Origin: Mermis nigrescens
Lineage: Eukaryota; Nematoda; Enoplea; Mermithida; Mermithidae
Length of the DNA: 64,000 bases
Direction of reading: 5' to 3'
NCBI GenBank assembly: GCA_036768485.1
Contig: JAVLUZ010000735.1
Coordinates: forward strand, 186,001-250,000
Under the pieces are notes generated by a model, which saw nothing but the letters and a program-made list of their open reading frames with translations, did not search any database and was not told the DNA's origin. This document shows, piece by piece, positions 7,491 through 55,334 of the stretch (position 1 is the stretch's first letter; each line of letters opens with the position of its first letter). The position numbers were made by a program, and so were the translations under genes.

Positions 7491-8568
7491 TGTAAATGTA
7501 GCCGGTCTCGATCTGGGTCTACAGAATCATCACAGATACGAACCGCACTAACGACTCACCTGCAAGATTTACCTAGGTACGTAGGTACTTAAGTCTGCGC
7601 TTAGTGCTGGTCCCGATCGCGCGGCTCTGAATGGCTTTCGATCTTTGGACCCTTACAGGACCTTACGGCTTCGATCCCTCAGCCCTAATATTGCTGGCTG
7701 CTTTTCGTCGGGTGATCTCAGCAGCTACGCCCTAAGACCTAAGGCTACCTACCTAGTCTCGGTATTTGCCGCGGGAGGTCAGTTGACCTATCTCAAGCTC
7801 CAAGTTGTTTATTTTAACTTATTTTCAATCAGTGCCTGATCAGAAATGTTTTTGGTTCCTAATTCGTGTAGCATGCTGAACAAATGAAAAACAACAACGA
7901 GCCTCTACGCTAATCAATCATCCTTAAAGATTAAAATAATATTTTTTGATCAATTTTTGGCTTGAGAAATAAATTATGATTTTCGAATAGAATAAACTAT
8001 CATACGAAATTTACACTAGTTGGGTGGAAGTCCTCGACGTAGGGATAATGGCCGACCTAACCCTCGGTATAACCAAAAACCACTGGGTAGGTTTTCTCTA
8101 ATTTTAATTCGATGCAGAAATCACGGCCTACAGCCGGACAACAAAATACGCCAAAAGAAAAATGATAATGTACAGAGTGTACAGTCGAATAACCGGCCAA
8201 CGAAAAAAAAAACCAAAAGCCAGACTCTAAACACAACGATTACGTATACTGGCCTCAAGGGCCATTACAGTAAAACAAATAAAGGTCAAATTAACGTAAT
8301 ACTGGAAGTAAGCCTTTATCTCAGATCGAATATTCTCGATTGCACAAGCGGTATGCATGAAATGATTACTATTATCGTACACTTAACTCTATGCTACCGG
8401 ACAAGTATCTAAATGTTTTTTATTGTTGAAAATTTGGGGGAAATAAATGGGAAGACCAAAGGCACAGCCCACAGTGCACTATCATAGATAGCTACTAGTA
8501 TTGGCTATGTTATGGCTATCGCGAACTGCTAAGGCAGGTTCGCCTATCGTGTAACTCTCGCAGTTACA
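7491..8568 (-). repeat. 3' LTR of element A (family-A LTR, 1078 bp)
   Basis: On the minus strand it starts TGTAACTGCGAGAGTTACAC at 8568 and ends TTTACA at 7491, the usual TG...CA form. It matches the solo LTR at 58872-63822 once the LINE is removed from that copy, and the fragment at 21716-22633. The first 20 bases fold as a hairpin (TGTAACT against AGTTACA) and a second hairpin, GCGAAC...GTTCGC, follows. Differences from the 21716-22633 fragment every 10-20 bases mark it as old. Confidence 0.85.
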
Positions 8569-8580
8569 CTCCCACCACGA
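8569..8580 (-). other. Probable polypurine tract of element A
   Basis: On the minus strand GTGGTGGGAG directly precedes the LTR start TGTAACTGCG. Its position and purine content fit the primer for plus-strand DNA synthesis. It is short and interrupted by T, so the call is tentative. Confidence 0.5.
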
Positions 8581-9278: not shown

Positions 9279-10147
9279 TCAGGACAAAAACGAGAAAAAT
9301 TGACGAGAAGCTGCTGGTCGAATTCGACGCCGTCGCAGAGTTCCAAAAAGTTCAGTACGTCGAACTTGATAATTAATAACGATCCTGATAATTGGCCTTC
9401 GAGCCATGCGGGTTTTCCGGCGACGTCTTTGGCCGTTGAAAATATTCTTGATCCGACTCCGGTCCGCAACGCGTATTTGAACGCTCATGATACTGATATG
9501 GCGATTGCCTACGCCCGTGCATGTGTTGGCATAAGCGTTGATGTGGATCGACTGGTCGATCGTCGTCCTCAAAATTGTCGTCGTCCTCGTAGTTGTCCCG
9601 CGTAACGACGCGGTATAGGTGGCGGCGGAGTAAATAATTGCTCCGGCGTAAGGCCGTAATGAATTGATTACGTGAAGGTTCACGTGGATGCTGTTGTTGT
9701 TGCGTAACAGGCCACGGTTTTGGCAAAAGTTGGACCGGGTCGAGGCTGTGGCTGATAGCCCCCGGTGGCTGGTTGACTTTGTTCCAATAGTGAGGCGATA
9801 CGACTGGTCCCATTGTTGTCATTGATGGGATTGTGACCGGCCCCAATGAGTTCCGCGGGTTCGACCGTGGCGGGGCCGGCGGTATTCATAAGGCTGCTGC
9901 TGTCGTGAGCGCGACAGATGACAAGCATCGGCCTGAGAATACGCCTCGGAAACGCTCACGCAGATTCCGTCAGTTGCTGCTGTTGCCGCGGTTGGGTCTG
10001 CGGTCTTGTGGCCATAGCTGTACATGTGGTTTTACTTGTGTTTGTGGTTGTGCTTGCGATTGTGAACAGTGATGCGTTTGTGCGCAACATTTGCCGGGAT
10101 GACTGCGGGTGCTTGCCGCCTCCGATCCTCTTTGGCCTCAAACGCAC
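9279..10147 (-). pseudogene. Element A ORF5 region, Q/P/R-rich, frame broken
   Basis: Four overlapping minus-strand frames (10147-9956, 10025-9819, 9928-9680, 9846-9373) each carry part of a low-complexity product. They show QPRQQQQ, PAEL-GAGHNP, YQPQPRPGP and an acidic-basic tail with EDDDNFEDDD and many R/H/Q. This pattern fits one disordered ORF cut by frameshifts. Element B has a comparable stretch at 55335-55951 with QPQPQP, glutamine and arginine runs. It could be a separate ORF or the C-terminal extension of ORF4, whose frame stops at 10150. No domain is recognised. Confidence 0.45.
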
Positions 10148-10149
10148 TT

Positions 10150-11932
10150 TTAACTTAGCTGCGACTTCAGCTTGGACGAGCCTTCTGACTCATTGTTTTT
10201 CCAAATTCTTTTAACCGACGCAAAGTGTGCTTCGGACTTAGTATCGTAAAAACGATTCAATTTGGCCTTGTGTTCGTCTTCTGACATGTGACGAACTTCT
10301 GAAGACTCAGCAAGAGAACCGGCGGCGCGTAACTTCGTTGCACGCCGTGGCATTTCCATTGCCAAATTCTCACGATCGCGTTTCTTGATCGTCATGCGTG
10401 TTCTACGCATTTCAATTTGTGCCTCCAAAGAAAGATCGACTTCTGGCATATCAAGGCTCGCTGCGGATCCGCTCGGGTCCTGCGAGGATGCCTGTCGCCT
10501 TTCTCGACAAATTTTTTCTAATTCCGCCTTGGATTCGATGTTTGAGGTAAAATACAGATTTTTGCTGACCTCTGAAACGATCGAATTGAACAGGAACTTC
10601 GAGTGGCGGGTTGGTAGCTAACCGAATTTGCCTAATCATGTTATGCAAAACATGAGGACTTTCAATTCGTGCCGTTAAGTCCGGGAATTCCGGAAAAGCC
10701 TCACGTGGCGATGGCGTGTAAGATTCGCCAAGGAACGCTACGCGCAACATGCGACGTAACTGTTCCACCATGCGCCAACCTATTCCGGCATTGCCGTAGG
10801 CGTACGCGAAGAAGTGGAATTTCCTATCTAAGAATTCCAAAAGCGCTGTAGCGCGCATGACGTCTATTGAAGAAAAGATCGTCATGTGTCGATACTCCGA
10901 ATCATATAATGACTGAAATTCTCGGAAAGTATCGAAAATATCGACCATCTGACGTGTCGATATTAAAATGGGCGCTAGGTGATCCGGCGCTGGTGACATT
11001 CTGTGCGGATATAAATCCGGGCGAATCTGATGTGTAACGCCGTCGATCACCTCGCTCGGTGCATCAAGGTGTGGGTGTACGACCAAATACTCGAGCGGAA
11101 CCTCGTACAACATCATTCCGGTTGTGATAAAAAACCGTATGCGCACGAAGTATTGGTCGGGGTAAAATAATCGGTTAAACACGCTCATTTCGCTAATAAA
11201 CCAAGGTGCAGGCTCATGATTGACACCAGCCACAGGCTGTGCGATTGTAGGCCACACTAAAGGACGCGAGGGCGAGTCAGTCGAAGTCGCGTACTGCAAA
11301 TGGATTGCGTACACTCGATCGAAGTACACTTGAGCAGCTTCGACCAACTGATCGTATAAACGCGATCCTGCGACCTCACCCAAATAGGAACGTAAGTCGT
11401 GCAAAACGACTGGCGCGATAGTGCACGGTGGTCCGCGCGTCATATTTTCCATCATGGTGAAGAAATGCTGTACGTAGCGCGAGCGATTTTGTACTCTGGC
11501 GCTTTCATTCGCGGCCATACGTTCGCGAATAGCTTGAACGTGCGCAGGTATTGCGACTTCCATATTTGATGATTGGCTTTGCGTAGCCTGTGGTTGAATA
11601 TTTGCCACGGTACTAGACACACCCGTCATGGCCATAGAAGCCGTAAAACGAGTATCCGGTGCCAACGTACCTTGTGGCACGGGCTGAGACGTGACTTGCG
11701 TGTATAATGCTACTTGTGGTACTTCGTGTGCAGCTAATGTACGTTGTGGTTGCGGCGGAAAACCAATAATTTCAGTCATGATCACGTCGGGCTCAGAATC
11801 ACGCTCTACCCAACCCGGCTGCGAAGTCGGCAAAGGTGCGAGCGAACTGATGCCCAAGGGCGCTTGTTGGTCCGCCGCAAGCGATTGCGAGACAATCGGT
11901 TGCGAAACGGTAACAATCCCTTTTCGAGCCAT
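10150..11932 (-). pseudogene. Element A ORF4, unknown protein with one frameshift
   Basis: The first frame runs from ATG at 11932 to a stop at 10451 (493 residues). The product then continues in another frame from about 10560 to TAA at 10150, with a charged helical segment (AELEKICRERRQ, later TIKKRDREN). Element B (54041-54895) keeps the junction in a single frame, ATDPDLTIF to TLYVSSE, so the break in A is a mutation. The first 120 residues are Pro/Gln-rich and disordered-looking. Residues about 150-480 look globular, with RLFYPDQYFVRIRFF and a helix-rich segment including FDTFREFQSLYDSEYRHM. There is no signal peptide, no membrane segment and no furin-like site, so it does not look like an envelope protein. 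It overlaps the end of ORF3 by 134 nt in another frame and may have been continuous with it. Confidence 0.6.
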
Positions 11933-13547
11933 TACTCGCGCGTGTTACACGCGGTGGCGACAAGTTAGCTTGTCTGTCCGCCTCGGCGTCAGATAACGCC
12001 ATCACTAAACGTTTGGGAGATAAATCGTCATCCTCAGTGGAAATCGATGGTTCTACATCAACCATGGGTGAATCGTATGGAATATCGGTTTGCGAAGAAA
12101 ACACAGAAGCTGGAGTGCTCGAGCTAGTTGGTTTTGACTTAGGTTCCGTGTCAGGCACATTGACCGGGCCCAAAACTGGGTCGGCAACGGTCTGCAATTC
12201 CTGAGTATAGAACATTGGATTCTCGAAAACATTAACGTGAGCCATCGCATCCGTTACAGAAGCGATGGTAGTGGCCGCAGCTATGGCCACTGGCGGTTGC
12301 GGAGCTGGGCAATAAAAGTCCTCAGCTAAGATTAACTCTTCGCCATTTGAATCAACTTCAGCGTCAACCGCTGCGCTGGTCGACTGTCCCTGAGGTGGTT
12401 TACTAGTCGACAGCGGTATGCGCACTTTAGCTTTAGGACCGCTAGCCTTAATATACAGTTCATCGCCTGTAAACGAAACCGACATGGGTTTTCTATCGTC
12501 AGTAATGCGATTATCTTGCGTGCACCCTTCTATCAATATAAACACATCGATAGTTATGAGGGCGTCCATCGCTAGATAATGCTGCATGTCCCTAGTTAAG
12601 GGTAAGCTCCACGCCTGTCCGAAGTTATCAGGCGCGTTCGGATCAATATACATGTCAAAAAAGAATTCGGCCAAGCGCTTTAATGAGTGTGACTGCGCTT
12701 TAATGCGTAAACGACGCGTAAACGTTCTCGCCAATGGCTGAATATCAATGAAATTTGCAATGAATGGATCTTTCCAGTGCAGTTTACTGCAAATTTCTGC
12801 ATCCGGTATTGCCACAATTTCCTCGAAAGTTGGCCCATAAACATGGAAATACGCAAGTCGATCTTGCGTTGGGTCATAACAAACCATATATACGTTAGGT
12901 AAGCGCGTTTCAAGCAACTGGTGAAGCCCGAACGGAGGTTGCGGGAACTTTGCTAGATCCCAACAGAACACATGGCCGTTCGCGCTCGCAACTTGGACGT
13001 AGCGTACGAATGGGCCATGGAGGTCCTGGTAAGTGGGACATAGTTGCTGATAACGCAAGTCCCAGGTCTTATAATGCCTGCCTTTTCTGTCATTCACAAA
13101 TTCGGAATCATAGCCTAAGAATAAAGTGCCATTTGTCATATTCGATGGCTGAATTAACGCCAAAATGGCGGCAAACGACTTCTGGTCATCGGAGATTATG
13201 ACGGTGGGTAGAAGTCTGTTCTTTGGTACGCGAGGGGTTACCAAAGGAAATCTACCAAACCGATTCGCCCACCAGAGTTGCTGGTCGTTAATACGCTTTT
13301 TATGATTTACGATTTTATGTGATGCTTTATGCTTTATCCATTTTGCGGTAAATGATTCTAGACCGCCAACACGACTATTATCGTTTTGGGGTAACGGGTC
13401 TGGTACGACCAAGCCCCGCTCCAAAGCCATACTGGTCAATGCCGAACGAAACTCATCTAGGGACGCGGGATCACGCCCCTCAAATTTGCATCGGCGACCA
13501 GCTGCTTCCAACAATGCCTCCTTGCTGGGGGTACCTTGTGCAGCCAT
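11799..13547 (-). CDS. Element A ORF3: DEDDy 3'-5' exonuclease (RNase D/WRN-like) in env position
   Basis: The 582-residue product has an N-terminal basic region (1-120), an exonuclease domain (about 135-340) and a disordered Ser/Pro-rich C-terminus. Exo I is GYDSEF with D147 and E149. Exo II is CYDPTQDRLAYF with D229, and FIDIQPLA follows at 266. Exo III is the WSLPLT..MQHYLAMDAL block with Y324 and D328, giving DEDDy chemistry. Proteins of this superfamily remove nucleotides from 3' ends of RNA or DNA with two metal ions. All catalytic residues are present. The start overlaps the last 91 nt of pol in the -1 frame. It was chosen because ACCCATGG follows a splice-acceptor-like sequence, conserved in element B. 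The gene is visibly richer in GC than pol. The last 45 residues overlap ORF4 and may be a frameshifted tail. The biological substrate is unknown. Confidence 0.85.
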   Translation of the reverse strand: MAAQGTPSKEALLEAAGRRCKFEGRDPASLDEFRSALTSMALERGLVVPDPLPQNDNSRVGGLESFTAKWIKHKASHKIVNHKKRINDQQLWWANRFGRFPLVTPRVPKNRLLPTVIISDDQKSFAAILALIQPSNMTNGTLFLGYDSEFVNDRKGRHYKTWDLRYQQLCPTYQDLHGPFVRYVQVASANGHVFCWDLAKFPQPPFGLHQLLETRLPNVYMVCYDPTQDRLAYFHVYGPTFEEIVAIPDAEICSKLHWKDPFIANFIDIQPLARTFTRRLRIKAQSHSLKRLAEFFFDMYIDPNAPDNFGQAWSLPLTRDMQHYLAMDALITIDVFILIEGCTQDNRITDDRKPMSVSFTGDELYIKASGPKAKVRIPLSTSKPPQGQSTSAAVDAEVDSNGEELILAEDFYCPAPQPPVAIAAATTIASVTDAMAHVNVFENPMFYTQELQTVADPVLGPVNVPDTEPKSKPTSSSTPASVFSSQTDIPYDSPMVDVEPSISTEDDDLSPKRLVMALSDAEADRQANLSPPRVTRASNGSKRDCYRFATDCLAIACGGPTSALGHQFARTFADFAAGLGRA

Positions 13548-16500
13548 GGGTCTGCAAAAGGAAAAACATTAGATAATGGTACGGCATGTGCTGTTTTAGA
13601 ACCATTTAATAAACGTACAGGCGCGCAGTCCTTAGCTTTCTGTTCCCTGCCCGGTAAATCCTCAAAACTTATGACAACTGCCGGGGCAAGAGGGCGATGT
13701 GGTAATTTTACCAACACAAAATCGCCAGGGACATACGCGTGTTTTTCCACAATTAAGTCAGAATAAGGTAGTTTAGGTTCAGGTAGAAGTCTATTCCTAT
13801 GCACGTGATGAATGATGAGAGGATTATAGACATATGCGATTTTCGCAGTTTCAGGCGTAGGTAAGTCAATAATTCGGTATGGCCCAACACGCTTGGGTGA
13901 TAGTTTACCGATTTCAGGTTGAATGACTGAGGTATTATTAAGATAGACTATATCCGAGAGATTAAAATTTGTGTGCGTTACGGATTTATCGTATTGCGAT
14001 TTTTGCTGCTTACGCGCTTGCGTTAAGTTTTGAGACGCGATTTCATGCAGATCTTGCAAAGTCAGCTTTAAATCAATGACATATTTTTCCGCAACAGATG
14101 GTAAGTTCGGATTTATTACGAAGTCATTTATAAGTAAAGTGTCAAGAGGAAATGCTGGTTCGCGACCATAAAGCATTTCAAAAGGAGATATATTAGTCGA
14201 TGATTGTGGAGTCGCGCGGTATGCAAATAATGCAAAAGGTAGAAATTGCTCCCAATCATACTGGGAACGCGCACTCAGCTTAGACAAACAATCAATCAAA
14301 GTTCGATTATAACGTTCCACCAACCCATCACACTGGGGGTGATATGGGGTTGTAAATATTTTCTGAACGTTTAATAATTTGCAAACTTCCGAAATGAGGG
14401 TAGATGTAAAATTTGACCCCTGATCTGTCAAAAATTTTTTGGGAACTCCATAACGTGGTATGATTTCTCTTAGCAATAAATTTGCAATTGTTGTTGCTTT
14501 TATGTCAGAAACAGCAAAAGCTTCCACGTATTTTGTAAAATAATCCATAAAAACTACAATTTGGTCATTTCCGGAGGGGGATCGCGGCATATGCAAACAA
14601 TCGCACGCAATGAGTTCAAAGGGCGCGGATACTTCGATTGGTTGCAATGGAACGGATGTGGAATTTAATGCGACCTTACGTTGTAAGCACACATCACAAT
14701 TCCGACACCACGCGATCACATCATTTTCCATGCGCGGCCACCAATAACGCATTTGTATGGCGGGCAAAATTTTGCGCGATGAAAAATGAGCTCCGAAAAT
14801 AGAGTCATGAAATTCCGTTAATATAAAACGACGCAAAGATTTGGGTATGACTATTTGATGAACGACAGTTGGTGAACGCTTAGGTTGAAAACGACAAAAA
14901 AGTACATCGTTTACGAGAAAAAATTCGTCACGATATTTTTTCGTTGTTAAGTCATTCAATGCGATGCGAATTTTATGCAATTCATCATCTGCACGTTGCT
15001 CAGCGAGTAAACGCGCAGGTGTTAGCATTTCAGCTTTTTCGGCATCGGTAAGTAATAAGCGTTCGCGAAATGTAGGTGGTTTAGAATTGGTAGGATCGGT
15101 TTGCGCAGTAGAATTATTATTTTGCGCATTTGGATGATTAATTGGTGCAGTAGGCGCATTATCGCACGATCGGTCAGGTGGAACCGATTCATCATCTGAC
15201 TCAGAATCTTCGGATTCTAAATTTGCGATGTTAACGATATTTTTGCGCTCTACTTTATATTTGCGTTCTGCATGATCATATTTAGGGTGTCGTGAAAGAA
15301 GATCAGCTGCGCAGTTATATGCACCAGGAACGTAAACGATATCATATTCGTACTCCTGTAATTTGAGACCCCAACGGCGTAAACGACTCGATGGGTCTTT
15401 AACGTTTACTAACCAGGTTAACGCTTGATGATCAGTTTCGACAATGAATTTTTTACCGTAAAGATAGTGTCGATAATGCTTGATGGCCCACACTACCGCT
15501 AACGCTTCTTTTTCTGAAGTAGCATAATTACATTCAGCAGAATTTAGCACGCGACTAGCGTAGCTAAGAATAAAACGATTTTTGGATGGTAAATGTTTTT
15601 GCGTCAAAATAGCACCTAACGCATAGTTACTTGCGTCAGTTGTTAAAATAAATTGGTGCTCATCATCGAATTTCGGTAATTGCAAAATAGGTGGGGACGT
15701 AAATGCTTTCTTCAGAAGCTCAAATGCGGTTTGGTGTTCAGCCTTCCAGCAAAATTCGACATCTTTACGAAGAAGATGGAATAATGGTTTAGCGATTTTA
15801 GCAAGATCCTTAACGAATTTCTTAAACCATTGGACTAAGCCAAGGAATTTCTGCAAGGATTTAACGGTTTTCGGCACGGGAAACGAGATTAAGTCTGCGA
15901 CTTTGGACATGTCAGGAGCGATGCCCATTGCACTTATGCTGTGGCCAAGAAATTTTACCTCTGCATGCGCAAGATGGCATTTATCAGGCTTTACACGTAA
16001 GTTTGCCTTTTTAAGAGCAATGAAGACATTTTCAAGATCTTTTAAATGTTCTTCGAAAGTACGTGAAAAAATAATTATGTCATCGATGTAAACGAGACAA
16101 GATTTCCAATTTAGACCTGCGAGCACAAGCTCCATTAGTCTTTGAAAATCTGCGGGTGCATTTTTTAAGCCAAAAGGTAAAACTTCAAATTCGTAATGAC
16201 CAACAGGACATATAAATGCTGTTTTTTCGCGAGATTTATTATCGAGTGGAATTTGCCAGTATCCGGATTTTAAATCGAGTGTGCTAAAATATGCGGCATT
16301 GCCTAAGGTGTCAAAATAATCATCTAATTGTGGAAGAGGATAAACTTGCGTTTTAGTGATGTCATTTAACCGTCGATAATCGACGACTGGCCTAAGGGAA
16401 CCGTCCTTTTTTCCAATGAGAAATAATGGACTTGCCCATGGGCTAGTAGTAGGTCGAATAATTTTATCCGCAAGCATTTCATTTATAATTTTCTGCATAG

Positions 16501-16648
16501 ATTCTCTTCTAGAATGCTCAACACGATAAGTTTTTCCAACAACGGGTGGATTATCCCCTGTGTCAATATGATGTTTCATCAAGGGGGTACGACCGAGAGG
16601 TTCGTTTTTTAATGCAAAAATTGAGTCGTATTTTAAGACAAAGTTCAC
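13457..16648 (-). CDS. pol: Element A pol: RT, RNase H, integrase (Ty3/gypsy)
   Basis: The open frame is 1063 residues. The RT has WASPLFLIGKKDG, VDYRRLND, LDLKSGYWQI, LPFGLKNAPADFQR and the catalytic YIDD at 187-190. RNase H follows with D338, E381, D406 and D449 (TTDAS, SEKEAL, ETDHQ, AADLLSR). An acidic, Asn-rich spacer of about 70 residues (478-525) precedes the integrase. The integrase zinc site is H614, H621, C651, C654 and the DDE triad is D683, D742, E778 with the D,35,E spacing. The C-terminal part (about 960-1060) binds no recognised partner. No ATG marks the start: the frame should continue from the protease, and an extra A near 16638 separates the upstream frame (QQQQIRELCLK) from YDSIFALKNEP. 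Element B reads through this point without the extra base. Confidence 0.95.
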   Translation of the reverse strand: MNFVLKYDSIFALKNEPLGRTPLMKHHIDTGDNPPVVGKTYRVEHSRRESMQKIINEMLADKIIRPTTSPWASPLFLIGKKDGSLRPVVDYRRLNDITKTQVYPLPQLDDYFDTLGNAAYFSTLDLKSGYWQIPLDNKSREKTAFICPVGHYEFEVLPFGLKNAPADFQRLMELVLAGLNWKSCLVYIDDIIIFSRTFEEHLKDLENVFIALKKANLRVKPDKCHLAHAEVKFLGHSISAMGIAPDMSKVADLISFPVPKTVKSLQKFLGLVQWFKKFVKDLAKIAKPLFHLLRKDVEFCWKAEHQTAFELLKKAFTSPPILQLPKFDDEHQFILTTDASNYALGAILTQKHLPSKNRFILSYASRVLNSAECNYATSEKEALAVVWAIKHYRHYLYGKKFIVETDHQALTWLVNVKDPSSRLRRWGLKLQEYEYDIVYVPGAYNCAADLLSRHPKYDHAERKYKVERKNIVNIANLESEDSESDDESVPPDRSCDNAPTAPINHPNAQNNNSTAQTDPTNSKPPTFRERLLLTDAEKAEMLTPARLLAEQRADDELHKIRIALNDLTTKKYRDEFFLVNDVLFCRFQPKRSPTVVHQIVIPKSLRRFILTEFHDSIFGAHFSSRKILPAIQMRYWWPRMENDVIAWCRNCDVCLQRKVALNSTSVPLQPIEVSAPFELIACDCLHMPRSPSGNDQIVVFMDYFTKYVEAFAVSDIKATTIANLLLREIIPRYGVPKKFLTDQGSNFTSTLISEVCKLLNVQKIFTTPYHPQCDGLVERYNRTLIDCLSKLSARSQYDWEQFLPFALFAYRATPQSSTNISPFEMLYGREPAFPLDTLLINDFVINPNLPSVAEKYVIDLKLTLQDLHEIASQNLTQARKQQKSQYDKSVTHTNFNLSDIVYLNNTSVIQPEIGKLSPKRVGPYRIIDLPTPETAKIAYVYNPLIIHHVHRNRLLPEPKLPYSDLIVEKHAYVPGDFVLVKLPHRPLAPAVVISFEDLPGREQKAKDCAPVRLLNGSKTAHAVPLSNVFPFADPWLHKVPPARRHCWKQLVADANLRGVIPRP
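13551..13575 (-). promoter_or_regulatory. Putative splice acceptor for ORF3 mRNA
   Basis: On the minus strand TCTAATG (branch-point-like) is followed by TTTTTCCTTTTGCAG, then ACCCATGG containing the ORF3 start. Element B has CTAACG...CACCTTTTGCAG and AGCCATGG at the matching place (52258-52281). Env mRNAs of errantiviruses are made by splicing to a site at the pol end, so the same route is inferred here. The site also encodes conserved pol residues, which weakens the argument. Confidence 0.6.
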
Positions 16649-16699
16649 GAATTTGTTGCTGCTGTCTAGAATTAACGGCGGAGCCGTTTAAAGCTTTAT

Positions 16700-18310
16700 T
16701 TATTGATGCAAAAGTTCTGGTGTCCTATCATCCAAAGATGAAACGTGTGACACAACTTCGGCATCAGTGGTTAAAGAACCTATTATTTCACCAGAGTCAA
16801 TGCGAATTGGCGCTTTAGAGATGTTACAAACGCGAACAGGTATTAAAGGTTGTGAAGCATCGACTATAGACGGAGCAACAAAAAGTGAAGTTTTTTCCAT
16901 AAAATCGGGATTTGGTTCAAATAATGCGAAGTCAAAATTGCAAGAACCATGACTTATATAGCCAGGTGTAATTAATTCATGCCTAGGTTGTATAATAACA
17001 GGCTCAGGTAACGAAACATGCACACACACAACACCAGAGGTAGTTGCGTTGGGTTTCGCGCGAAATTGCAATTTTTCGTGAGATGAAAGTAAATTAACCT
17101 TTATGCCGTTTATAAAAGCACAACGCTCAATAGGATTAACCCACATGAGTGCGGATTCGCAAAAATCATATCCTAAGAGCATGTCTTCCGGCAAATGATC
17201 AATTATAGCTACTGAAGTAGAGATAGATTGTTCCGCAATTGTTAAAGTCATATTTACTTTATAACGAACGACTGCGGTGATTTCGCCTACACCATGTACG
17301 ACTTGTGAAACCTGTTTAGGTGGTAAATTAAAACCAAGACGTAAGAATGCAGACGTGGTCATCATGGTGACCTGTGAACCCGTATCTATGAGAGCAGGTA
17401 CGTCAACGCCATGAACTTTAACGAGAATGGTGGGTAAATTTGTCCCAGCATGGCTTACGATAGGAATATTAGGATCTAAGGTCTTAGACGGAGGTAGATT
17501 GATTTTCTCATAAGTTGCAAGACGACGTTGTAGACGTTCGTACTCTTCAAGAAATTCTTGCGACGCGAATAAATTAGGACGCGCGCTAGATTCTGGCCCT
17601 TTTGCAGTAACCGTGTTCACATCATGAGGAGATGTAAGGGTTGGCTGCGGTGGGGGCACATTTGTGGCGGGTTGGTTATCAGCCGTATATGTGACATATG
17701 GACGATTAAAATTATTGTCGTTGCGATAATTCGAGTTATAGTATGTTCCACGCTGTTCATTTGGAAATTGCACAAAAGGTGTATTTTGGCGCGGTTGATT
17801 ATTATAACGATTATCGTAACGCGAATTTTGATAATTAGCACGCGAATTTTGGTAATAATCATTACGATTTTGCCAAAAATTCGATCGTGATTGCTTTGAT
17901 TCAAAGCGATTATCATTATTCGCATAGTTAGATGGACGATGTTGACTAGAGTTACGATATCGTGATTGAGATCGCTGCCTATTTTGCGAATTCGAACGCG
18001 ATGGCGAACGATTTCGTTGCAAAAAAGAACGCGATTGGCTGCGATTGCGAGCCATAGAATTGGTATTCCGATCAGCTTGGTTATTATAATTAGCGTTATT
18101 AGACGTTTCTTGCCTTTGACGCGTGAAACATTCCTCATAAATGTGACCTATGCGCTTGCAAAAGGTACAATATCTACGAGAAGAATTTTCTGGTTTCTCA
18201 GCACGCGATGAGCGATGAAACGTTCTATGACGTGAACGATTTGAATCATTTTGGTTAGATGCGCGAGGAGTATCTTTAGGTACTACGCTGCCTACGGGAG
18301 CAGCTGTATA
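16700..18310 (-). CDS. gag: Element A gag C-terminus and retropepsin, 5'-truncated
   Basis: The frame is open upstream of the internal Met at 18055 as far as the break at 18310. It encodes a zinc knuckle C-x2-C-x4-H-x4-C (18128-18169), which binds RNA in nucleocapsid proteins. A long Arg/Ser/Asn/Tyr-rich disordered tract follows (RSQSRS, NRYNNQ). Then comes an aspartic protease with ALIDTGSQVTMM (DTG at about 17380) and the second signature MLLGYDF (about 17170). The product ends at 16700 shortly after EVVSHVS. The pol frame resumes in the -1 register as TFASINKAL, so a -1 frameshift between protease and RT, or a mutation, is needed. The capsid domain, start codon and leader have been lost at 18310. 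Confidence 0.85.
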   Translation of the reverse strand, partial: YTAAPVGSVVPKDTPRASNQNDSNRSRHRTFHRSSRAEKPENSSRRYCTFCKRIGHIYEECFTRQRQETSNNANYNNQADRNTNSMARNRSQSRSFLQRNRSPSRSNSQNRQRSQSRYRNSSQHRPSNYANNDNRFESKQSRSNFWQNRNDYYQNSRANYQNSRYDNRYNNQPRQNTPFVQFPNEQRGTYYNSNYRNDNNFNRPYVTYTADNQPATNVPPPQPTLTSPHDVNTVTAKGPESSARPNLFASQEFLEEYERLQRRLATYEKINLPPSKTLDPNIPIVSHAGTNLPTILVKVHGVDVPALIDTGSQVTMMTTSAFLRLGFNLPPKQVSQVVHGVGEITAVVRYKVNMTLTIAEQSISTSVAIIDHLPEDMLLGYDFCESALMWVNPIERCAFINGIKVNLLSSHEKLQFRAKPNATTSGVVCVHVSLPEPVIIQPRHELITPGYISHGSCNFDFALFEPNPDFMEKTSLFVAPSIVDASQPLIPVRVCNISKAPIRIDSGEIIGSLTTDAEVVSHVSSLDDRTPELLHQ

Positions 18311-21715: not shown

Positions 21716-22633
21716 AGCTTTCGATCTTGGACCCTTACAGACCTTATGGCTTCGATCCCCTCAGCAGCCCTAATATTGCTGGCCGCTTTTCGGCGGGTAA
21801 TCTCAGCAGCTACGCCCTAAGACCTAAGGCTACCTACCTAATCTCAGAATTTGCCGCGGAGGTCAGTTGACCTATCTCAAGCTCAAGTTGAATATTTAAC
21901 TTATTTTCCAATCAGTGCCTGATTCGAAAAGTTTTTGAGTTCCTAATACGTGTAGCACAATAGACTATGAAAACAACAACATCGAGCTCTTACCTGATCA
22001 ATCATCCTTAAAAATTAGATAATATTTTTGATCAATTTTAGGTTTGAGAAATAAATTAAGATTTCCAAATAGCATAAGCAAACATATGGGATTTACCTAT
22101 CCGTCCACTCTGATGAGTTGAAATCCTCGACGTAGGAGTGGCCGACCTAACCCTCGGTATATCCGAAAACCCCTGGGTAGGTTTTCTCTATTTTATTTCG
22201 AACGAAGAATCCACGGCCTAGTTGCCGGACAACAAAATAAAGCAAAAGAAAAACGGAAACGTACGGACTATACACATCGTACGACGGCCAACGAGACTGC
22301 CAACAACACTAACTACATTGGCCTCAAGAGACCATTACAGTAAAATAAACGAAGATCAAATTAACGTAATACTGATACACTTTTATCTCAGATCGAATAT
22401 TCTCGATTACACAAGCGGTATGCATTAAACAATTACTATTATCATACACTTAACTCTATGCTACCGGACAAGTATCTTAATGTTTTTTATTATTGAAAAT
22501 TGGGGAAATAATGGGAAGACCGAAGGCATAGCCCACAGTACACTATCGTAGATAGCTACTAGTATTGGCTATGTTATGGCTACCGCGAACTGCTAAGGCA
22601 AGTTCGCCTACACGTGTAACTCTCGCAGTTACA
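21716..22633 (-). repeat. Truncated family-A LTR, probable 5' LTR of element A
   Basis: On the minus strand it begins TGTAACTGCGAGAGTTACAC at 22633 and matches the LTR at 7491-8568 down to the GATCGAAAG block. The last 220 bp or so and the expected primer-binding site are missing. It could be the original 5' LTR of element A or an independent solo LTR. Flanking bases do not repeat those at 7487-7490. Confidence 0.75.
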
Positions 22634-23162
22634 ATCTTACATAAAAATTATGAAATAATTTTTATGATTTTTAAATTGAAATTTGGGTGTTTGAATTTGC
22701 GATAAAGAAAATAATTAAAAGACAGTCACTTGGTTTATTTAAGCCGAGTAATAAAATAAGGGCCGTCCACCAATTCCAAACTAAACGCGATTGATCACTA
22801 TGAAAAAGTATTGGAAAAATGAGCTTGCTAAGCGACAGTTGTAAACCAAGAGAAACTTAAAGTTTAAACCTACCATTAAATTATGGAGAGAATTGTAGAA
22901 GATTTTAATTTTTAAGAAAATTGAAAAGGTGGGATGTTGGTAAATTAAAAAACAAAGTTCTTCGGCAAAAATTCCAAAATTTCACGCAAATATCAAGTGT
23001 AAGGAACACTAACGCTCAGATTTGGTAATAAAATAAATTTGTAGTATAAACTACATATTAACAACAAATGAATTGTGCAAACTTTACAAAACTACTAAGT
23101 CGTAGAGAATACTAACAGTCAGATTCCCAATTCTGATTTTACGTAGAACAAAAACTAGAATT
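22634..23162. other. Unassigned AT-rich DNA
   Basis: It contains a short perfect inverted repeat near 22641-22665 (CATAAAAATTATGAAATAATTTTTATG). No coding frame is visible. Confidence 0.4.
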
Positions 23163-38351: not shown

Positions 38352-38410
38352 CCCAACTTTTTGTTAGCAAAAAATAGTAGTTATTCCTATCTTTGTCAGT
38401 GTTGTAGCGA

Positions 38411-44241: not shown

Positions 44242-45421
44242 TGTAGATAGTGTATCTACACGAGCCATTACTGTACGGCCCTTGCGCACCTTAGTGCGCC
44301 AATTCAAATCCGGTCGTGTGTTTCCACTTTTGGCGACCCAGCCATATTTTCAGATCGGCTTGATATGACATGTTTGGTCTACGCGGTGTCAATTGGTTGG
44401 ACTCTTATTAAGCTAGGTGTCGTGAGGGATACTATGATGCGACCTTGTTTTACTGTGGAACACCCGACAAGTCCCCTATCAATTTTCGACATGACGATGG
44501 CCGCTATTCCGTTGAGCCTGTCACGGAGACTGGAAAATCTATGTGCAAGTAGTACACAATTTTTGTCATAAACACATTTTACAATATTTCTTTCTTCATA
44601 CTTGTGGGCCAATCCCCTTAGGATTATTAGTTAGTTTGTGCCAGTTTGGCTTTTGCTTTTGTAGGCGTGTCAACTTCGACTTTATTAGCGCCATTTGTTG
44701 TACATTGTTTCAACTCGGTAAAAGCACGAAAATCCACTGAGGCGCATTATCGCAAGCAGTCAGGAATTGGGATCAGGCCGGCCATAGCTGTATTTCTTGC
44801 CAGATTTCGTTGGGTAGTGCTGTTATCTTTCGTGCGAAATTCTTAATTTCTTTCTAACCAAAAATCTATAAAAATTATTACATAATTTTTATAGTGGATA
44901 TTTGTAGGATTAGAGCTCTTTGTTGTTGTGTTTTAGGTACAGAGTGCTGTTAGAACCAAAATTCATAAGTAATGTAGTTTCGCCATAGGTAATCGTGCGA
45001 AACCTTTTTCGATTCTTTTCGCGAAAAATTGAATAAGAAGGTCTAAGGACCTAGGGCGAATGCAGGGATTATCTAATTACTCCTGGTTAAGATCGCGGTC
45101 GGCATATCCTTCCCAAATTCTCTATAGGTACCGGACCAATTCGTCCGTGGAGATTTCCGGCAGTAGGTATTCAGGGTCAGTTTGGAAGAGTGCAGGTGTT
45201 TACCGCGGCAACGACCAGCGCTAGGTATAGCATAGGTGGTGGTCCTGAAGGTACTTCACGAGTTTCGCTAACTTTTGTAGTTGTTGTGTGCTGGTTATCT
45301 TCTCTGACGTGCTGTCAGTTCAATTGTCATTACGCCAAGTGCTAAATCAGCCAACCTTCGTTTTGCGTGCGTAAAGATACTCCAATAACTTCGAAGGCGG
45401 ATGGAACCCACCTAAGTTACA
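44242..45421 (+). repeat. 5' LTR of element B
   Basis: It starts TGTAGATAGTGTATCTACA, a perfect 8-bp-stem hairpin, followed by a second hairpin GCGCACCTTAGTGCGC. It ends CACCTAAGTTACA. It aligns with 56516-57691 throughout, with frequent small indels that show age. Confidence 0.92.
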
Positions 45422-45422
45422 G

Positions 45423-45440
45423 TGGAGTTTCCCCCTTGGA
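45423..45440 (+). other. Probable primer-binding site of element B
   Basis: TGGAGTTTCCCCCTTGG starts one base after the LTR. TGG matches the complement of a tRNA 3' CCA, so it would pair with a tRNA ending in ...AAACTCCA. The tRNA species is not identified. Confidence 0.6.
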
Positions 45441-46151
45441 GTTGCTCGCGTGACAACCGATCCGTTCTGTCATCATTTAAATTAATACATAATATTTTGC
45501 AGCTCTTCTTCGGCATTCTAAAAATGTATGTATTGTTTCGCTTGTATATTTTTATCGTATCGTCCTTTGTCGCGGCAGTGCGCAGATAAGTTTAGCGTTC
45601 GCGGCAAAGAAATTCTGTATTTGTGGTAAAGTCGCTGGTATTTCTTCTCTACCATATACCTATTCGACTAAGCAAAATATTTTCCGCCTTTTGCCACGCT
45701 CGCGAAATTCTTTTGTGCCTCTCTTTGCATTTTCGTTATATTTTGGCATATAGAGGTTTATTTTTGGAAAAACGCTACCTAGAGGGGTCCAATTCGGAAA
45801 AATTTTTTCAGATTTTCAGATAGTGATTTTTGGAAAATTTTCTTTTGTGTTCATATTTCAAACGTTCCATTTTTTATAATGGGTATTTTGAAAACTACGT
45901 ACCCCCCAATAAAGGTGCCGCTCAACCCGCCTGTAATCCTACAGCCTGATCAAACCAGTTCTTGGCCGAGCGATAACACTATTTTACCCCCTTGGCCAAA
46001 AACAATACCTCCGTTATCCTTCTGATAATGAGTCTACTACCCGTGGCGTGCATTCCGGGCCACATTAATTCTGCTGATCGCAAATTGAAGTAAATTCCTG
46101 ACGCAACAATTGTTAATAATGAAGTCTTCTTGCAGCGCTTGGTCGCGATGA

Positions 46152-48230
46152 ATGACTCAGATGGAAAACGAAGCCGTTTTGCCTAGTCGAACTTTTGATG
46201 TGGAAAGTAATGCATCTGAAAAGCAAAATGAGGATGAAACTCGTCCTAATTCGGCAAATTCTGACCGAATTCTTTCGACTATTCTTGGGAGCTATTCAGA
46301 AAATGCAGTTTCAGCATGCGCCAATTGTAGCCAAATTCGTGAGGAACTTAATAACGGTCTGACTCGTTTTCTGTATACGAGCTGAGTGAATCTTGCGAGT
46401 ACATGAAGCGAAAATGTGATTAATGATGTGCCTTCTCCGTTACAAACGGCGTGCCAAGAACAGGCAGACAATCTTGAAACCGAGTTTGATAATTCATCAC
46501 CTATCATTGTTGCCTCCAATTAATAATCCGCCTAAGGTTACACTCGCGTCAAAGAACATCTGTGCCTATTTTTACTACTTAATTGATCGTAGCCATGGAA
46601 CTTTAGATCGTCGTATCGCGCGTGAGTAGCGTGTGCAATACTTTCTCAGGGTCAATTTATCTAATTTTGCGCGTCTTTGTTTCACCAGCGTCTAATCGCT
46701 AAAGTGTTGAAAACGCGCCTACTTTTCAATTTTTGCAGCGCCCTTTAAATCAATAGCGCCTGGGCTGTGCCTAATACTGTAAATGTCGCAACATCCTTCT
46801 TTAAATCCCATACCTTTGCAGTATTTTCCTCCCTAGCAGCGGAAAAGCGCGCCCATGCAACAGCGTCGTTCAGGGCGATAATTTTCCAGCGCTGACTAAG
46901 GTAAGCAATCCCTGCTCATGCCAATCAGGGACAGCTAATTGCGCGCCAGCCAATGAAAGCCAGCGCCATGTCAGATTTTCAGATGAGGACTCTAATACGC
47001 AGCGGGAAGATTAGCATGTTAACGGTAGAAAGTTACGCATAGCGGTCGTCGCTCGCACCATAATTCAGATTCTTCATCTTCTATTGTGCGATAATTAATC
47101 TATTTTCGGCTTCATCATCAACGGCCCTACTTTAACTTGTCCTGTAGCTGTAGCTGCTAGGAAATCTTTTCAGGGTGAAAAAACTGATGATATTCGGAAA
47201 TTTTTCAGTGAATTTGAAAGATTGGCAAATATATAAAATCGACAAAAAGATAGAGCTGTATTTGTTTCATGTTTTCGACGACTATGCGTTAAATTTGTAT
47301 GAGCGTTACGCAAGTGCGTAATTCTTACACTAAGACTAAATGCGCTATGATCGCGGAGATTTCGTCCTCTCGATCCGCGATGCGTTATATGACCACTTTT
47401 TCTTGACGTAAGCAACAGCCCAATGAGTCTGTTCAAGCTTACTATCTCATGCTTCACAAACAATTAAGGCAGCGCTAGACTCATGATTCTGAGCAATTCA
47501 GCGAAATGCTTAGCCCATCAATTAGCTTGTGTTCTTTAGAAATTTCTACTGCAGCTTATCAAGCGGCGCGCCTGAAGCTGAGTTGCATGAATTTTGCATA
47601 ATGCTAAATGCGAAGAGTATGCAGCGCGCCAACTTGCTTGTAGCAAAAAAAGCGCCAACGCCCTATGTCTCGACCATTGCAATCCTGCCGGTGCAATTCC
47701 TAAAGGAATCTGTGCGTTTTTCTAATAATGCTGATTCTGATTGTTAGCGCCGTAGATGTTTTCGTTGAGGCCCCAAAAATGAGCAATCTTCAGCACGCGT
47801 AATTTTGTGATTTTGCGCTGCGGTCATGTTGAAGAACAATGTTTTAAAAAGACAGAGACAGCGCCAAATCTGTGAAATTGCACAGCAAGCGAAATTCGAA
47901 CCAGCGAAAGCGTGTCAGCATAACCAGTCAGTCAGCGTTCTTGAATAAATCGTAATCGCTCGCCATTAAGCGCTCAAATAATAATCATCGACCTCGATTA
48001 AGCCTAGATAATTGCGATCAAAGTAAAATAGTCAATCTCTTTCTAAAATTCTGGCATCGTTTTGAATCTAGGCGCTGCTTGTCCAATTTTTAGGCAAAAC
48101 TATAACGATTACGCGCCAAATTATCACCAAAACTATCAAAATCAGCCTTCACGTACGCATGCAATCTTACCGATATAGTCAAAATAATCCTTATGTGACT
48201 CCATCGGCAAGAACAGCGTATCACGTATTA
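46152..48230 (+). pseudogene. gag: Element B gag remnant
   Basis: After a leader of about 0.7 kb, frames carry pieces of a gag protein. One is an acidic N-terminal part (46152-46385), and another is a capsid-like stretch near 47150-47700 with KSFQGEKTDDIRKFFSEFERL. A worn zinc knuckle lies near 47800-47845 (last part GHVEEQCF), where element A has its intact CCHC. It supplies the capsid half that element A lacks. Many stops and frameshifts interrupt it. Confidence 0.7.
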
Positions 48231-48539
48231 TAATTCTAATTATCGTTCTGTATACGCCGAAATTATCCCTAAGCGTCACATACATAGCGGATTACCAGCC
48301 ATACATAGATTATCCCCCGCCACAACCGCCCTACTCGCCCAAGAAAAATGCTAACATGGTTACCTCTCATCAATCTACAAGGAAATTAAGCGGGAAGAAA
48401 ATTTTGCATCCCAAGCATTTTTGGAAAGAATATGATGAATTTTAGCGAAAGATTAGCGGTTTTAGAAAAAATGAAGCTTCATCCCCCTTAAATCAGGATT
48501 CTGGGGAATTCCGATAGTTAGTCATGCCGGAATGCGAAT

Positions 48540-49260
48540 CTACCCACCATTTTGGCTGAAATTCATGGTGTAAAATTCCGGCACTCATTGACACTGGTTC
48601 GCAATCACAATGATGACTACTGCAGCATTTTTGAACTAGGTTTCAGGTTACCTCCGAAACAAGCGTCTAAAATCAGGACAGGTGACACAACAGTAGTTGT
48701 TTGCTTTAATTTCAATATGACTACTTCTCGCGGATCATTCTATTCCTACGTTAGTGTCTATCATCGATAAATTGCCAGAAGACATGCTTCTCGGGTTTGA
48801 TTTTTGCCATTCCGCATTACTCTGGTCGTCATGGCAAGGTGCGCGCGTTTATAAGCGGTATAAAATTAAATCTCTTATCACCCGAGTGAAAAATTGCAGT
48901 TTTTTGTACCAATCCAAATGCTAAAATCGCATGTCCTATCTGTTTGTGCATGTTTCAATTTCAGAGCCCATCACGATTTTGCCACGCCACGAGTTAATAA
49001 CACCTGCTTATATAGAATCCACCGGTTCCTATGATGCCAATCATAGCGCTTTTCGAGCCCGGTCAGAGTTTATGTAAAGTCACTTTTTGTCGCCCCTGCT
49101 ATCGTCGACACTTCAGTTTCAGTTTTTCCTTTGCGGTTTTGTAATATTTCAAAATCGCCTGTGCAGAATCGACACTGGAGAATTAATTGGATAAGCGTCT
49201 GATGTTGAGGTCGTGTCTCATGTTTCTGTTTCAGGCGATCACTTTCGCTCAAACTTTTTC
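48540..49260 (+). pseudogene. Element B retropepsin remnant
   Basis: Pieces match element A's protease: LIDTGSQ in a broken frame near 48585, FELGFRLPPKQ, the second signature MLLGFDFCHSAL near 48785, and EVVSHVS near 49210. The frame changes several times, so it is inactive. Confidence 0.75.
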
Positions 49261-49279
49261 ACCGATAAATAAGGCTTTA

Positions 49280-52200
49280 CAGGGTTCTCTCCTTCAATTC
49301 TAAGGAACAGCAGCAAATTCGTGATCTTTGTCATAAATATAATTCGATATTCGCTTTAGTGACTTCACTAGGTCTTGCTGCTAGATTAAGCATCATATCG
49401 ACACAGGGGATAGTCCCCTGGTTGTAGGTAAACTTGCTCGTGTCGAACACGCGCGCCCGACAAACTATACAGCGAATAATAAACGAAATGATCGCGCTGA
49501 AAAGTCAGACCAAGAACTAGTCCCGATGATCCTTTTGTTTTTAATTGGGGAAAAAAGATGGTTCCCTCCGCCCAGTTGTGGACATTGCCGACTAAATGAT
49601 GTGACAAAAACTCAGATCTATCCCCTACCTCAAATTGACGATTATTTTGATGCCTAGGATGCAGCTTTACTTTAGTACGCTAGACTTAAAATCTGGTTAT
49701 TGTGAATTCTTGACGAAAAATCATTGAAAAAACCTTTTATCTGTCCTGTAGGTCACTACGGGTGGGGAGTGTTACCTTTGGTTTAAAAAACGCCCCTGCA
49801 GTTTTTCAGCGCCTTATGGGCTCGTTCTCGCTGGTTTTAAATTGGAAAACCTGTCTCGTATATGTGTGTTGTGTTTTCGCGCACGTTTTCAGAGCATCTT
49901 AAAAATCCTAAGAGATGTCTTTTTCTAGCGCGCTACAAAACACAAACTTAAGGAATTAAACCAGAAAAATGTCATCTAGCTCATGCAGAAGTCCAATTTT
50001 TGGGTCATCGCATAAGTTCGCTAGGCATTGCAGCTTGACTAAAATTGCAGATTTGATCAATTTTCCAGTGCCAAAAACGGTGAAAGCGTTGCAGAAATTT
50101 CTTTGGTCTCGTTCAATGGTTCAAAAAATTTGTAAAAGATCTCGCGAAATCGCGAAACCTCTTTTCGTTTATTAAGAAAAGACAATTTCTTTGGACTGAA
50201 GAACATCAAAAAGCTTTTCAAACGTTAAAAGATGCCTTTACTTCACCACCCGATTTTGCAGTTGCCTAAGATCGATAATGACCATCCAATTCATGGCAAC
50301 CGACACAAGTAATTACGCGCTAGGTGCCATTCTTACGCAGAAACATCTTCCATCTAAAAATCGTTTTATCCTTGGTTATGCTAGTCGTGTTTTAAACTCG
50401 GCCAAATAGCAAACTATGCCACTTCTGAGAAGGAGGCTTTAGCAGTTGTCTGGGCAATTAAGCATTATAGGCATTATCTTTATGGTAAAAGAAATTCATC
50501 GTTGAAACAGATCACCAGGCGCTTACTTGAAACACGTAAAATGTAAAAGATCCTCCCAGTCGTTTAAGACGCTGGGGTTTTAAAATTGGGAATATTAGTG
50601 TAAGGGTTGTTTTTATGTACCAGGCACATACTGCTGCGCTGCGGACTTATACGTCATCTAAATACGATCGCGACAAACAACGCTATAAGCTCGAACGTAA
50701 ACCCGTTACTGGCATTAGCTAACCTCAAATCTGAAGCGTCTGAGTCTGACGACGACAACGAACCACCTGATATAAGACAACAAACCATCGCGCCAAAAGG
50801 CAAGCTGCGCAAAAGATCATCCACCAGTTTTTTGAACACATCATTTTATCTGAAGCTGAAAAAGCGAAATTCTGTCGCCTATAAACTCCTTGCCGAACAG
50901 TAGGGACGACGAGTTAAACAAAATCCGTGAATAAGCTCAACGACTTAACAACACGTAAATATCGCGACGAATTTTCTTGCTAAATGACAATAATACCGGC
51001 TATTAAGCTCGTCATTCCCAAGTCAGCTGCAGCTTCATCTTAACCGGGCTACGATTCCATCTTTGGAGCCATTCTCTGCGCGAAAATCTTACCCGCCATT
51101 CAACTTCGTTACTGGTGGCCTAGAATGGAGAATGATGTGATTGCATGGTGTAGAGATTGTGAGGTGTGCTTGCAGCGTAAGGTAGTGTCCACCACCATAC
51201 CTTTGCAGCCCATCGAAGTTTCAGCACCGTTTGAGTTAATCGCGTGTGATTGTCTCCATGCCTCACTCAACGTCAGGAATGATCAAATCGTTGTTTTCAT
51301 GGACTATTTTACTAAGTATGTTGAAGCGTTTGCAGTGTCTGATATAAAAGCGGTCACCATAGCAAACCTATTACTGCGCAAGTTATTTACAGGCATGGCG
51401 TTCCAAAGCGATTCTAACTGATCAAGGCTCAAATTTTACATCAGCGCTAATTTCTGAAGTTTGCAAATTATTAAACGTTCAAAAAGTTTTCACAACCCCT
51501 TATGTCCTCAATTGATGGGTTAGTTGAACACAATCGAACTCTTATAGATGGACTTTCCAAATTAAGCGCGAGAAATCAATACACGATTGGGAACAATTTT
51601 TTGCCCTTTGCTTTATTCAACGTATCGCGCTGCTTCGCAGTCATCTATGAATATTTCGCAATTTGAGATGCTGCTCTTGATTCGTGAACCTTCTTTTCCC
51701 TTTCGATATACAGCTTTTAAGCGATCTACATTGAATCCTTATCTGCCTAATATAAGCTGAAAAATATCTTACTGATCTGAAACTTACGCTTCTTAACTTA
51801 CAAGATATCACTAGCGAAAATCTTGCTAAGCGTAACCATCAAGAAAAAGCAGTATGACAAAACAACGCGTGGTATGATGACGATATTGTATATCTCAACA
51901 ATAAAGCGTTAATTCAGCCCGAAATTGGAAACTTTCACCTAAACAATTAAGTCCGTATCGCATCAAATCTTTGCCAGCGAGCTTGGCTCGCATTATTTGC
52001 ATAATCCTTTAATCAATACGTAGTGCACCGTCACCTCTTGCCCCAAAAGTTGCCTATTCGATCTCATTTGCGAAAAAGTCGCATGCGTACCCGGTGATTT
52101 TGTTTTAGTTAAGCTGCGCGCGTTGACCTGTGTCGGCGGTAGTTATAAGTTTTGAGGGAATTAGCCCGGGCCGGGGAAGGGGAAAGGAACATGAGGGAGT

Positions 52201-52310
52201 GTGCGCCTGTTTGTTTGTTAATTGGTGTAAATGTCGGCACATGCGTGCGCTAACTAACGTTACACCTTTTGCAGAGCCATGGCTGAGCAGCGTGCTGGCA
52301 ACAAGAAGAG
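49280..52310 (+). pseudogene. pol: Element B pol remnant: RT, RNase H, integrase
   Basis: RT pieces include QQQIRDLCHKYNSIFAL (49310), YPLPQIDDYFD (49620), LDLKSGY (49681) and RTFSEHLKN. RNase H pieces include ATDTSNYALGAILTQKH (50300) and EKEALAVVWAIKHYRHYLYG (50430). The integrase zinc end and first catalytic Asp remain open at 51125-51421 (WCRDCEVCLQRK, LIACDCLHA). The Asp of DQGSNFTS and the GLVEHNR region follow in other frames. Its end, TNVTPFAEPWL (52250-52290), overlaps the start of ORF3 as in element A. Confidence 0.9.
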
Positions 52311-54920: not shown

Positions 54921-55334
54921 ACGCCAATCGCAGAAACGACTCGCTGATTCGGAGGCCCCCAAGCGGCATGACAAACGTGACAGATCTTTCTTTACAGGCT
55001 CAGATCGACTTGCGCCCAGGCCCGAATGATCATCGAAATGACCGTGAAACTAACCGTGCCACCATTGCCACGCGTTACTGTTGCACATAAGCCAGGCTCT
55101 TTAGCCGTGGCCTCTGAAATAAGACGTGAGGATGAGAACGCGTACATGGAGCACGCTTGATCCTATCACAAAGCCATTCTTTATTAAGGGCCAGCCGTAC
55201 GTCTGGAATAAATACAAACATACTCAACGAGCTATGCGTGCCAATCAAAAACAACGGGGCGACGCGAAAGGCAAAGCGTGATCTAGCTGACGTTATTATT
55301 GAAGCCATCTGAAAACTGAACCCGGACCCTCTTC

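Follow-up and report, generated by a model that had tools for sequence, protein, structure and literature searches.

Why should a Ty3/gypsy retrotransposon carry a 3'-5' exonuclease gene in the position that env occupies in other elements, and what might the enzyme do for it? The question is raised by an element in a 64,000-nucleotide stretch of the nematode Mermis nigrescens genome (assembly GCA_036768485.1, contig JAVLUZ010000735.1, positions 186,001 to 250,000 of the forward strand), which we refer to as the window. By its sequence this element (copy A) is a damaged member of a high-copy family of Ty3/gypsy long terminal repeat (LTR) retrotransposons that have a third gene in the env position. 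The predicted product of the third gene is a DEDDy 3'-5' exonuclease (RNase D/WRN superfamily) that continues into a long C-terminal region; the integrase appears to end in a PWWP-like domain. An initial annotation, made from the letters of the window alone, had proposed the exonuclease. We have followed it through the genome, which comprises 523,963,438 bases in 860 contigs.

An exonuclease gene behind pol

Open reading frame 3 (ORF3; 11799..13547, minus strand) lies directly after pol and is open from an ATG at 13547 to a stop at 11799. Residues D147, E149, D229, Y324 and D328 are all present in DEDDy order, just where the initial annotation had placed them, and the domain, supported also by alignment with 12 related element exonucleases, spans 12495..13157 (minus strand, about residues 131-351). 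The annotated length of 582 codons is correct for the window copy; as the true end of the frame it does not hold, since ORF3 runs on into the next frame, ORF4, in 16 of 20 copies.

Taken alone, ORF3 offers modest evidence for an exonuclease. Pfam family PF01612 (curated cut-off 23.6 bits) matches the whole protein at E=0.023 and the trimmed domain at E=0.0042 (17.4 bits), so the window ORF itself stays below the cut-off, which all five sister-family ORF3s that were scanned exceed. Other window proteins give unrelated weak Pfam matches at E=0.006-0.024, and the PF01612 values of ORF3 are thus indecisive by themselves. The spacing of the motifs also proves little by itself, as a loose version of it occurs in 299 of 2000 shuffles of ORF3; a stricter pattern, picked after viewing ORF3, occurs in 5 of 5000. 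When ORF3 is aligned with five RNase D-like solved chains by hhalign, an equal score is reached in 1 of 400 shuffles, and D229, Y324 and D328 are paired with the D, Y and D of RNase D while D147/E149 are not reached. A plain hidden Markov model built from the same five chains gives ORF3 only 5.0 bits. Protein database searches with ORF3, its exonuclease region and the integrase tail returned zero matches, viral-contig scans with ORF3, ORF4 and pol found no relatives, and neither ORF3 nor ORF4 had a match in NCBIfam or PHROGs. A PDB sequence search had zero matches for ORF3, ORF4 and the long ORF3 of another copy (L020), and the trimmed exonuclease domain drew only unrelated weak PDB matches, the best being a repeat protein at E=0.02.

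The genomic copies and the sister families together settle the matter, and we regard the DEDDy identity of ORF3 as confirmed at the level of sequence comparison. A genome search with ORF3 gave 75 scored matches, the best-scoring of 2890 first-look candidates; all have E=0 and 71 are, by eye, stop-free in the aligned stretch. We drew 20 of the 74 matches outside the window, making 21 copies with the window itself. Pol leads straight into ORF3 in each of the 20 (the fetched portion of pol is split over more than one frame in eight), and none of the 21 copies has lost any of the five catalytic residues, although one has an early stop in ORF3. The search for pol and exonuclease in one element, suggested by the initial annotation, thus found the pair in every fetched copy as well as in sister families, and the claim that a Ty3/gypsy element has a DEDDy exonuclease where env would be stands. 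Both outcomes that the annotation held would speak against it are contradicted, since relatives score above the Pfam cut-off for DEDD exonucleases and other copies join ORF3 to pol. These results refute the idea that the resemblance is due to chance, or that a host gene happens to adjoin a retrotransposon. The sub-threshold Pfam scores and the loose spacing seen in shuffles might have favored it, but with 20 of 20 pol junctions elsewhere and related ORF3s reaching E=3.6e-10 its probability is negligible.

The claim that the element has kept its exonuclease is likewise borne out by comparison of the copies, including the proposed analysis of nonsynonymous against synonymous change (dN/dS). In the exonuclease domain the pooled ratio of the two kinds of difference (pN/pS) is 0.073, and it is below 1 in all 205 informative pairs of 210, with the qualification that pairs from 21 copies are not independent and that the copies are those scoring best. 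Pooled pN/pS is 0.159 in the ORF3 N-terminus (199 of 201 pairs below 1), 0.245 in the linker behind the exonuclease (208 of 208), 0.035 in the integrase C-terminus (18 copies stop-free there) and 0.071 in the PWWP-like tail (19 copies). The ranking of the regions is clear, with constraint on the exonuclease within about a factor of two of that on integrase, and the domain is held by strong purifying selection. The initial annotation had also seen a diverged exonuclease remnant behind pol in an older element of the window, element B, and tblastn recovers it at 52474..53356 on the plus strand (E=2e-16 for 52790-53356 and 8e-5 for 52474-52956). In simulations of neutral decay, 200 of 200 copies at 40% substitution still match at 1e-16 and none of 300 at 58% substitution reaches 1e-10. 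Similarity between the exonucleases of copy A and element B is consequently no proof of protein-level constraint by itself, and it is the genomic copies that carry the case for selection.

As far as the ORF4 junction shows, the ORF3 protein would exceed 582 residues in 16 of the 20 fetched copies. In the window the coding signal shifts near 11900 to the ORF4 frame (10451..11944, minus strand, 497 amino acids), and in those 16 copies similarity to ORF4 begins in the ORF3 frame. The first stop falls at residue 1384 in 5 of 20 copies, and 15 of the 75 best-scoring ORF3 matches have an open frame of 1390. The 1383-residue protein of L020 consists of the exonuclease, a P/S/T/A-rich linker, the ORF4 domain (residues 539-1011), an R/E-rich part and a Q/R/P-rich basic tail; the last two are found in the window as pieces in shifted frames at 9373..10617 (minus strand), broken in this copy. 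A designed frameshift between ORF3 and ORF4 was considered and rejected because the copies in which they are split over two frames (5 of 21) are dispersed on the ORF3 tree.

ORF3 does not have the features of a transmembrane envelope protein of the errantivirus or retrovirus kind. The highest 19-residue hydropathy in the L020 protein is 1.69, against a usual transmembrane threshold of 1.6, and the stretch lies within exonuclease motif III. The ORF3 and ORF4 frames contain nothing like a furin site (a tail piece has one RERR), and no envelope family is among the Pfam matches of the element proteins. Errantiviruses are the env-bearing Ty3/gypsy elements; the Mermis element resembles them in having a third ORF after pol, probably expressed from a spliced subgenomic RNA, and differs in that this ORF encodes an exonuclease whose catalytic domain contains the sole hydrophobic stretch.

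PWWP-bearing integrases and the sister families

Upstream of ORF3 the element has the Ty3/gypsy order of gag, aspartic protease and reverse transcriptase (RT)-RNase H-integrase. Pfam places the gag C-terminus, with a zinc knuckle recognized by eye, and the protease at 16700..18307 (minus strand). Copy A lacks the gag N-terminus, has stops between protease and RT and changes frame after the exonuclease. The alignment of another copy (L030) with the window gag stretch stops at 18307, and gag family PF03732 matches a copy other than that of the window slightly under its cut-off (E=1.4e-4). The pol frame (13457..16687, minus strand) comprises RT, RNase H, integrase, what we take to be a GPY/F-type module, and the PWWP-like tail; its closest solved chain is Ty3 Gag-Pol (E=3.3e-124).

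The tail (13552..13726, minus strand) matches PF00855 at E=0.0015 and 19.4 bits, below the curated cut-off of 25.6 bits, and has zero matches in PDB. It can be aligned with the tails of sister families, which are bona fide PWWP domains, and has lost the YPxWPA signature, whose residues matter for methyl-lysine binding. In the sister pol tails PF00855 scores above cut-off (L040, E=9e-14 and 52.2 bits; L046, E=1.5e-11 and 45.1 bits). Among solved structures the L040 tail is best matched by LEDGF/PSIP1 (LEDGF/p75; E=7.5e-10), with HDGF proteins next. LEDGF/p75 is a separate host protein, whereas the Mermis domain is built into the integrase ORF. Chromoviruses, the Ty3/gypsy elements with an integrase chromodomain, offer a parallel in that a chromatin-reader domain follows the GPY/F module, the reader in Mermis being PWWP rather than a chromodomain. 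A literature search over titles and the openings of abstracts, with few subscription journals or preprints included, found no description of a PWWP domain on a retroelement integrase.

PWWP-bearing integrases are common in this genome. With 150 of 460 candidates scored there are at least 101 PWWP matches, many in repeated long open frames; some of the remainder may be host genes. We sampled six PWWP-pol loci, each from a repeated group not previously sampled, taking 2.6 kilobases (kb) per locus, and an exonuclease lies directly downstream in all six, its frame being interrupted in L057, L058 and L061. At L062 the PWWP domain is intermediate in form and the exonuclease is the nearest to that of the window family (34%; window ORF3 matches it at 1.6e-33). 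At L059, a separate open frame beside the element (1713-2474) has a GPTKAGKTTF motif and looks by eye like a viral packaging ATPase.

A PF01612 search of the genome provides an independent view, with 22 matches that are all above cut-off. The window family scores too low to be among these. L031 and L047 look to us like exons of a single Rrp6-like host gene; these two and L035 apart, the matches (19 of 22) are open frames of at least 285 codons. Six (L039, L040, L043, L044, L046 and L048) stand directly behind a Ty3 integrase with a PWWP match just upstream, and five (L033, L034, L041, L042 and L050) have an integrase in the fetched flank. Farther upstream DNA of L033, L036, L045 and L052 contains Ty3 pol in four of four cases, with no PWWP among the scored matches and ends that lack it by eye. 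No pol match was found within the 1.5-kb flanks of L032, L037, L038, L049 and L051; the same was true of L036, L045 and L052 until the more distant DNA was examined. The five sister ORF3s scanned against PF01612 exceed the cut-off at E=3.6e-10 (L033), 2.9e-7 (L041), 6e-7 (L043), 1.2e-6 (L046) and 1.3e-6 (L045), and the best solved match of the L033 exonuclease is WRN (E=0.0051). Direct tblastn with window ORF3 reaches L039 (1.8e-8), L043 (1.9e-7) and L045 (3.8e-5). The L045 family is sparse and mostly decayed, with 100 pieces of which three are full-length and stop-free and 97-100% alike.

We aligned 13 element exonucleases, one or two per family, picked for an unbroken domain; near-copies and broken ones, including L044 (a near-copy of L040), were left out. 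D147, D229, Y324 and D328 are present in all 13 and E149 in 12, L040 being the exception. In a tree of these sequences and five bacterial-type outgroups, the window exonuclease pairs with that of L062 (support 0.995), and the PWWP lineages stand apart from the non-PWWP lineages and outgroups (0.761; L060 is placed with support 0.318). In a tree of seven integrases the window groups with the PWWP lineages at 1.000. The pairing of pol and exonuclease is, by these comparisons, old and common to several Ty3 families of the genome. Since the element exonucleases branch like their integrases, the acquisition itself appears to be old, and the simplest reading would be one old acquisition followed by inheritance with pol. 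Capture from the host, as the initial annotation proposed, is a candidate source.

An LTR element that bears an exonuclease is not new in kind. Our literature searches on such elements led to work on bdelloid rotifers and its reviews, among which Rodriguez et al. 2017 describe DEDDy ORF3s in the Juno and Vesta LTR elements (PMC5408684). The likeness to Mermis, judged from the published description, is a DEDDy RNase D-like exonuclease in ORF3 after pol, common to several LTR families. According to the same paper, the Juno and Vesta exonucleases were acquired independently at least twice and RNA 3'-end processing is suggested for them, and a variation test on env-like and GDSL ORFs gave no evidence against neutrality (PMC5408684). 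The differences are several. Juno and Vesta are described as having a dUTPase between protease and RT, and none is among the Pfam matches up to E=1 for the window protease and pol ORFs. DEDD is reported as changed to DEED there (PMC5408684), whereas all five residues are kept in the window family. The PWWP-like integrase tail is a feature of the Mermis element, as is an ORF3 that can reach 1,383 codons and adds a further domain and a basic tail, and purifying selection was measured here on the exonuclease itself, unlike the reported test on env-like and GDSL ORFs. Passages of a further source name Juno and Vesta and leave the exonucleases unmentioned (PMC7943196). Terminons (Athena retroelements), also of bdelloid rotifers, are described as carrying DEDDy exonuclease ORFs, and differ in having a Penelope-like, endonuclease-deficient RT and lengths of up to 40 kb (PMC6431247).

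A proposed role and its rivals

Our best explanation of the whole, to which we give a probability of roughly 0.55, is that the ORF3 exonuclease trims the element's own 3' ends and that the PWWP tails of sister families tether integration. ORF3 would be made from a spliced, env-like subgenomic RNA and its basic tail would bind element nucleic acid. The exonuclease would then trim, in or near the particle, the 3' ends of replication intermediates, which may be unpaired or mismatched complementary DNA (cDNA) ends or transcript ends. In the sister families the PWWP tail would direct integration to chromatin methylated at lysine 36 of histone H3, much as LEDGF tethers integration of human immunodeficiency virus (HIV) to chromatin. 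Because the PWWP signature residues have decayed in the window family, its tail may bind something else.

For the expression of ORF3, a branch-point-like and 3' splice-acceptor-like tract, TTTTTCCTTTTGCAG (13548..13571, minus strand), lies just before the start codon and is identical in 21 of 21 copies, window included; element B retains TTTTGCAG of it. The synonymous difference pS is 0.033 at the end of pol (13552-13726) versus 0.128 in neighboring integrase, and this roughly fourfold reduction suggests that an overlapping RNA signal, for example for splicing, may be present.

The accessory (env) position and the probable separate expression of ORF3 would also suit an enzyme directed against host silencing. 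Such an enzyme would degrade or shorten the small RNAs of the host, or the precursors of these, and thereby free the element from control by Piwi-interacting or small interfering RNAs. DEDDy relatives such as MUT-7 are described as working in small-RNA pathways (PMC5408684). However, no specific link to MUT-7 was found, the match to a mut-7 homolog being that of E. coli RNase D and not of ORF3, and the catalytic domain evolves very slowly (pN/pS 0.073), unlike typical arms-race factors. Such slow evolution fits an unchanging substrate of the element's own, which is why we prefer processing of replication intermediates to anti-silencing, a possible role that we would bet against.

Another rival is proofreading, in which the exonuclease removes mismatched 3' ends left by the element's RT. 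Nidovirus ExoN proofreads a large RNA genome, and the Mermis element is itself large (about 14 kb by estimate) with its active-site residues kept. The exonuclease is nevertheless in a separate ORF outside the pol frame, and this separation from RT weakens the case for proofreading, which we consider quite unlikely. A bolder picture, of a retroelement clade with its own LEDGF-like integrase tether and its own exonuclease for editing RT products, self-contained, proofread and chromatin-targeted, is something of a long shot. Alternatively, the domain could be a catalytically dead RNA-binding derivative kept as a structural or ribonucleoprotein component; Maelstrom and EXD1 are named as such derivatives (PMC5408684). 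The long basic tail and extra domain suggest a structural role in nucleic-acid binding, and both loci seen in one sister family lack a catalytic residue. Against this, none of the 21 copies has a change in a catalytic residue and changes across families are rare, and it appears very improbable.

Several points weigh against trimming of the element's own ends together with PWWP tethering. The window's own exonuclease and PWWP both score under the Pfam cut-offs, and PF01612 is weaker still in two other copies (E=0.08 and 0.086). Only 3 of 10 loci of sister families have the strict acceptor-like pattern, and two of these three are near-copies. There is no fusion between ORF3 and RT, and the ORF4 frame, which supplies the C-terminal domain of ORF3, has no match in Pfam or PDB. 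The sister family without a catalytic residue lacks E149 at L040 and D147 at L044. Tree support for placing the window exonuclease with the PWWP lineages is modest (0.70 and 0.76), and the best-scoring, non-independent sample behind the pN/pS values counts on the same side.

An exonuclease in the env position can thus be a long-lived and selectively maintained part of a whole Ty3 group, which makes the gain of 3'-end processing or proofreading by a retroelement testable. HIV borrows its tether, LEDGF, from the host; PWWP-bearing integrases would be a natural counterpart with the tether built in, and would help in understanding how integration sites are chosen.

LTRs, element B and other features of the window

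The 3' LTR of copy A (7559..8569, minus strand) is homologous to the 5' LTR of L030. Well beyond 8569, 19 of 20 copies still align with the window, some of them (L013, L022) with an internal gap upstream in that alignment; the fetched stretch of the twentieth, L010, ends at 8563. Repeats at 7634-8568 and 21717-22633 and the ends of a unit at 58872-63822 had been candidates for derivatives of a long interspersed nuclear element (LINE), a reading rejected in favor of the family LTR because copies align past 8569. A second family LTR lies upstream at 21717..22639 (minus strand); its likeness to the 3' LTR is 84%, which makes it a doubtful partner for copy A. Between it and the truncated gag is an AT-rich stretch (18320-21716) with two diverged 260-base pair (bp) direct repeats (19812-20072 and 20837-21099).

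Element B (44242..57691, plus strand) is an older, decayed relative with two LTRs, pol, and remnants of the exonuclease and ORF4. Its LTRs (44242-45421 and 56516-57691) are 81% alike and have TG...CA ends, and a 4-bp target duplication is seen by eye against the empty site. The unit at 58872-63822 is a solo LTR of the window family (58872-59448 and 63359-63822) interrupted by a LINE that is CR1-like by eye, with a PHD-finger ORF1 (59475-60446) and an endonuclease-RT ORF2 (60447-63230). Rfam and transfer RNA scans of the window were empty, and a genome search for a nematode SL1 sequence, allowing up to one mismatch, found none. A short 20-bp tandem repeat (41861-42020) lies within a region of large inverted repeats. 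Sequence at 37787-40827 is an inverted copy of 57692-58871 and 42625-44242 in which the target sites of element B and of the solo LTR are still empty, which allows both insertions to be dated against it.

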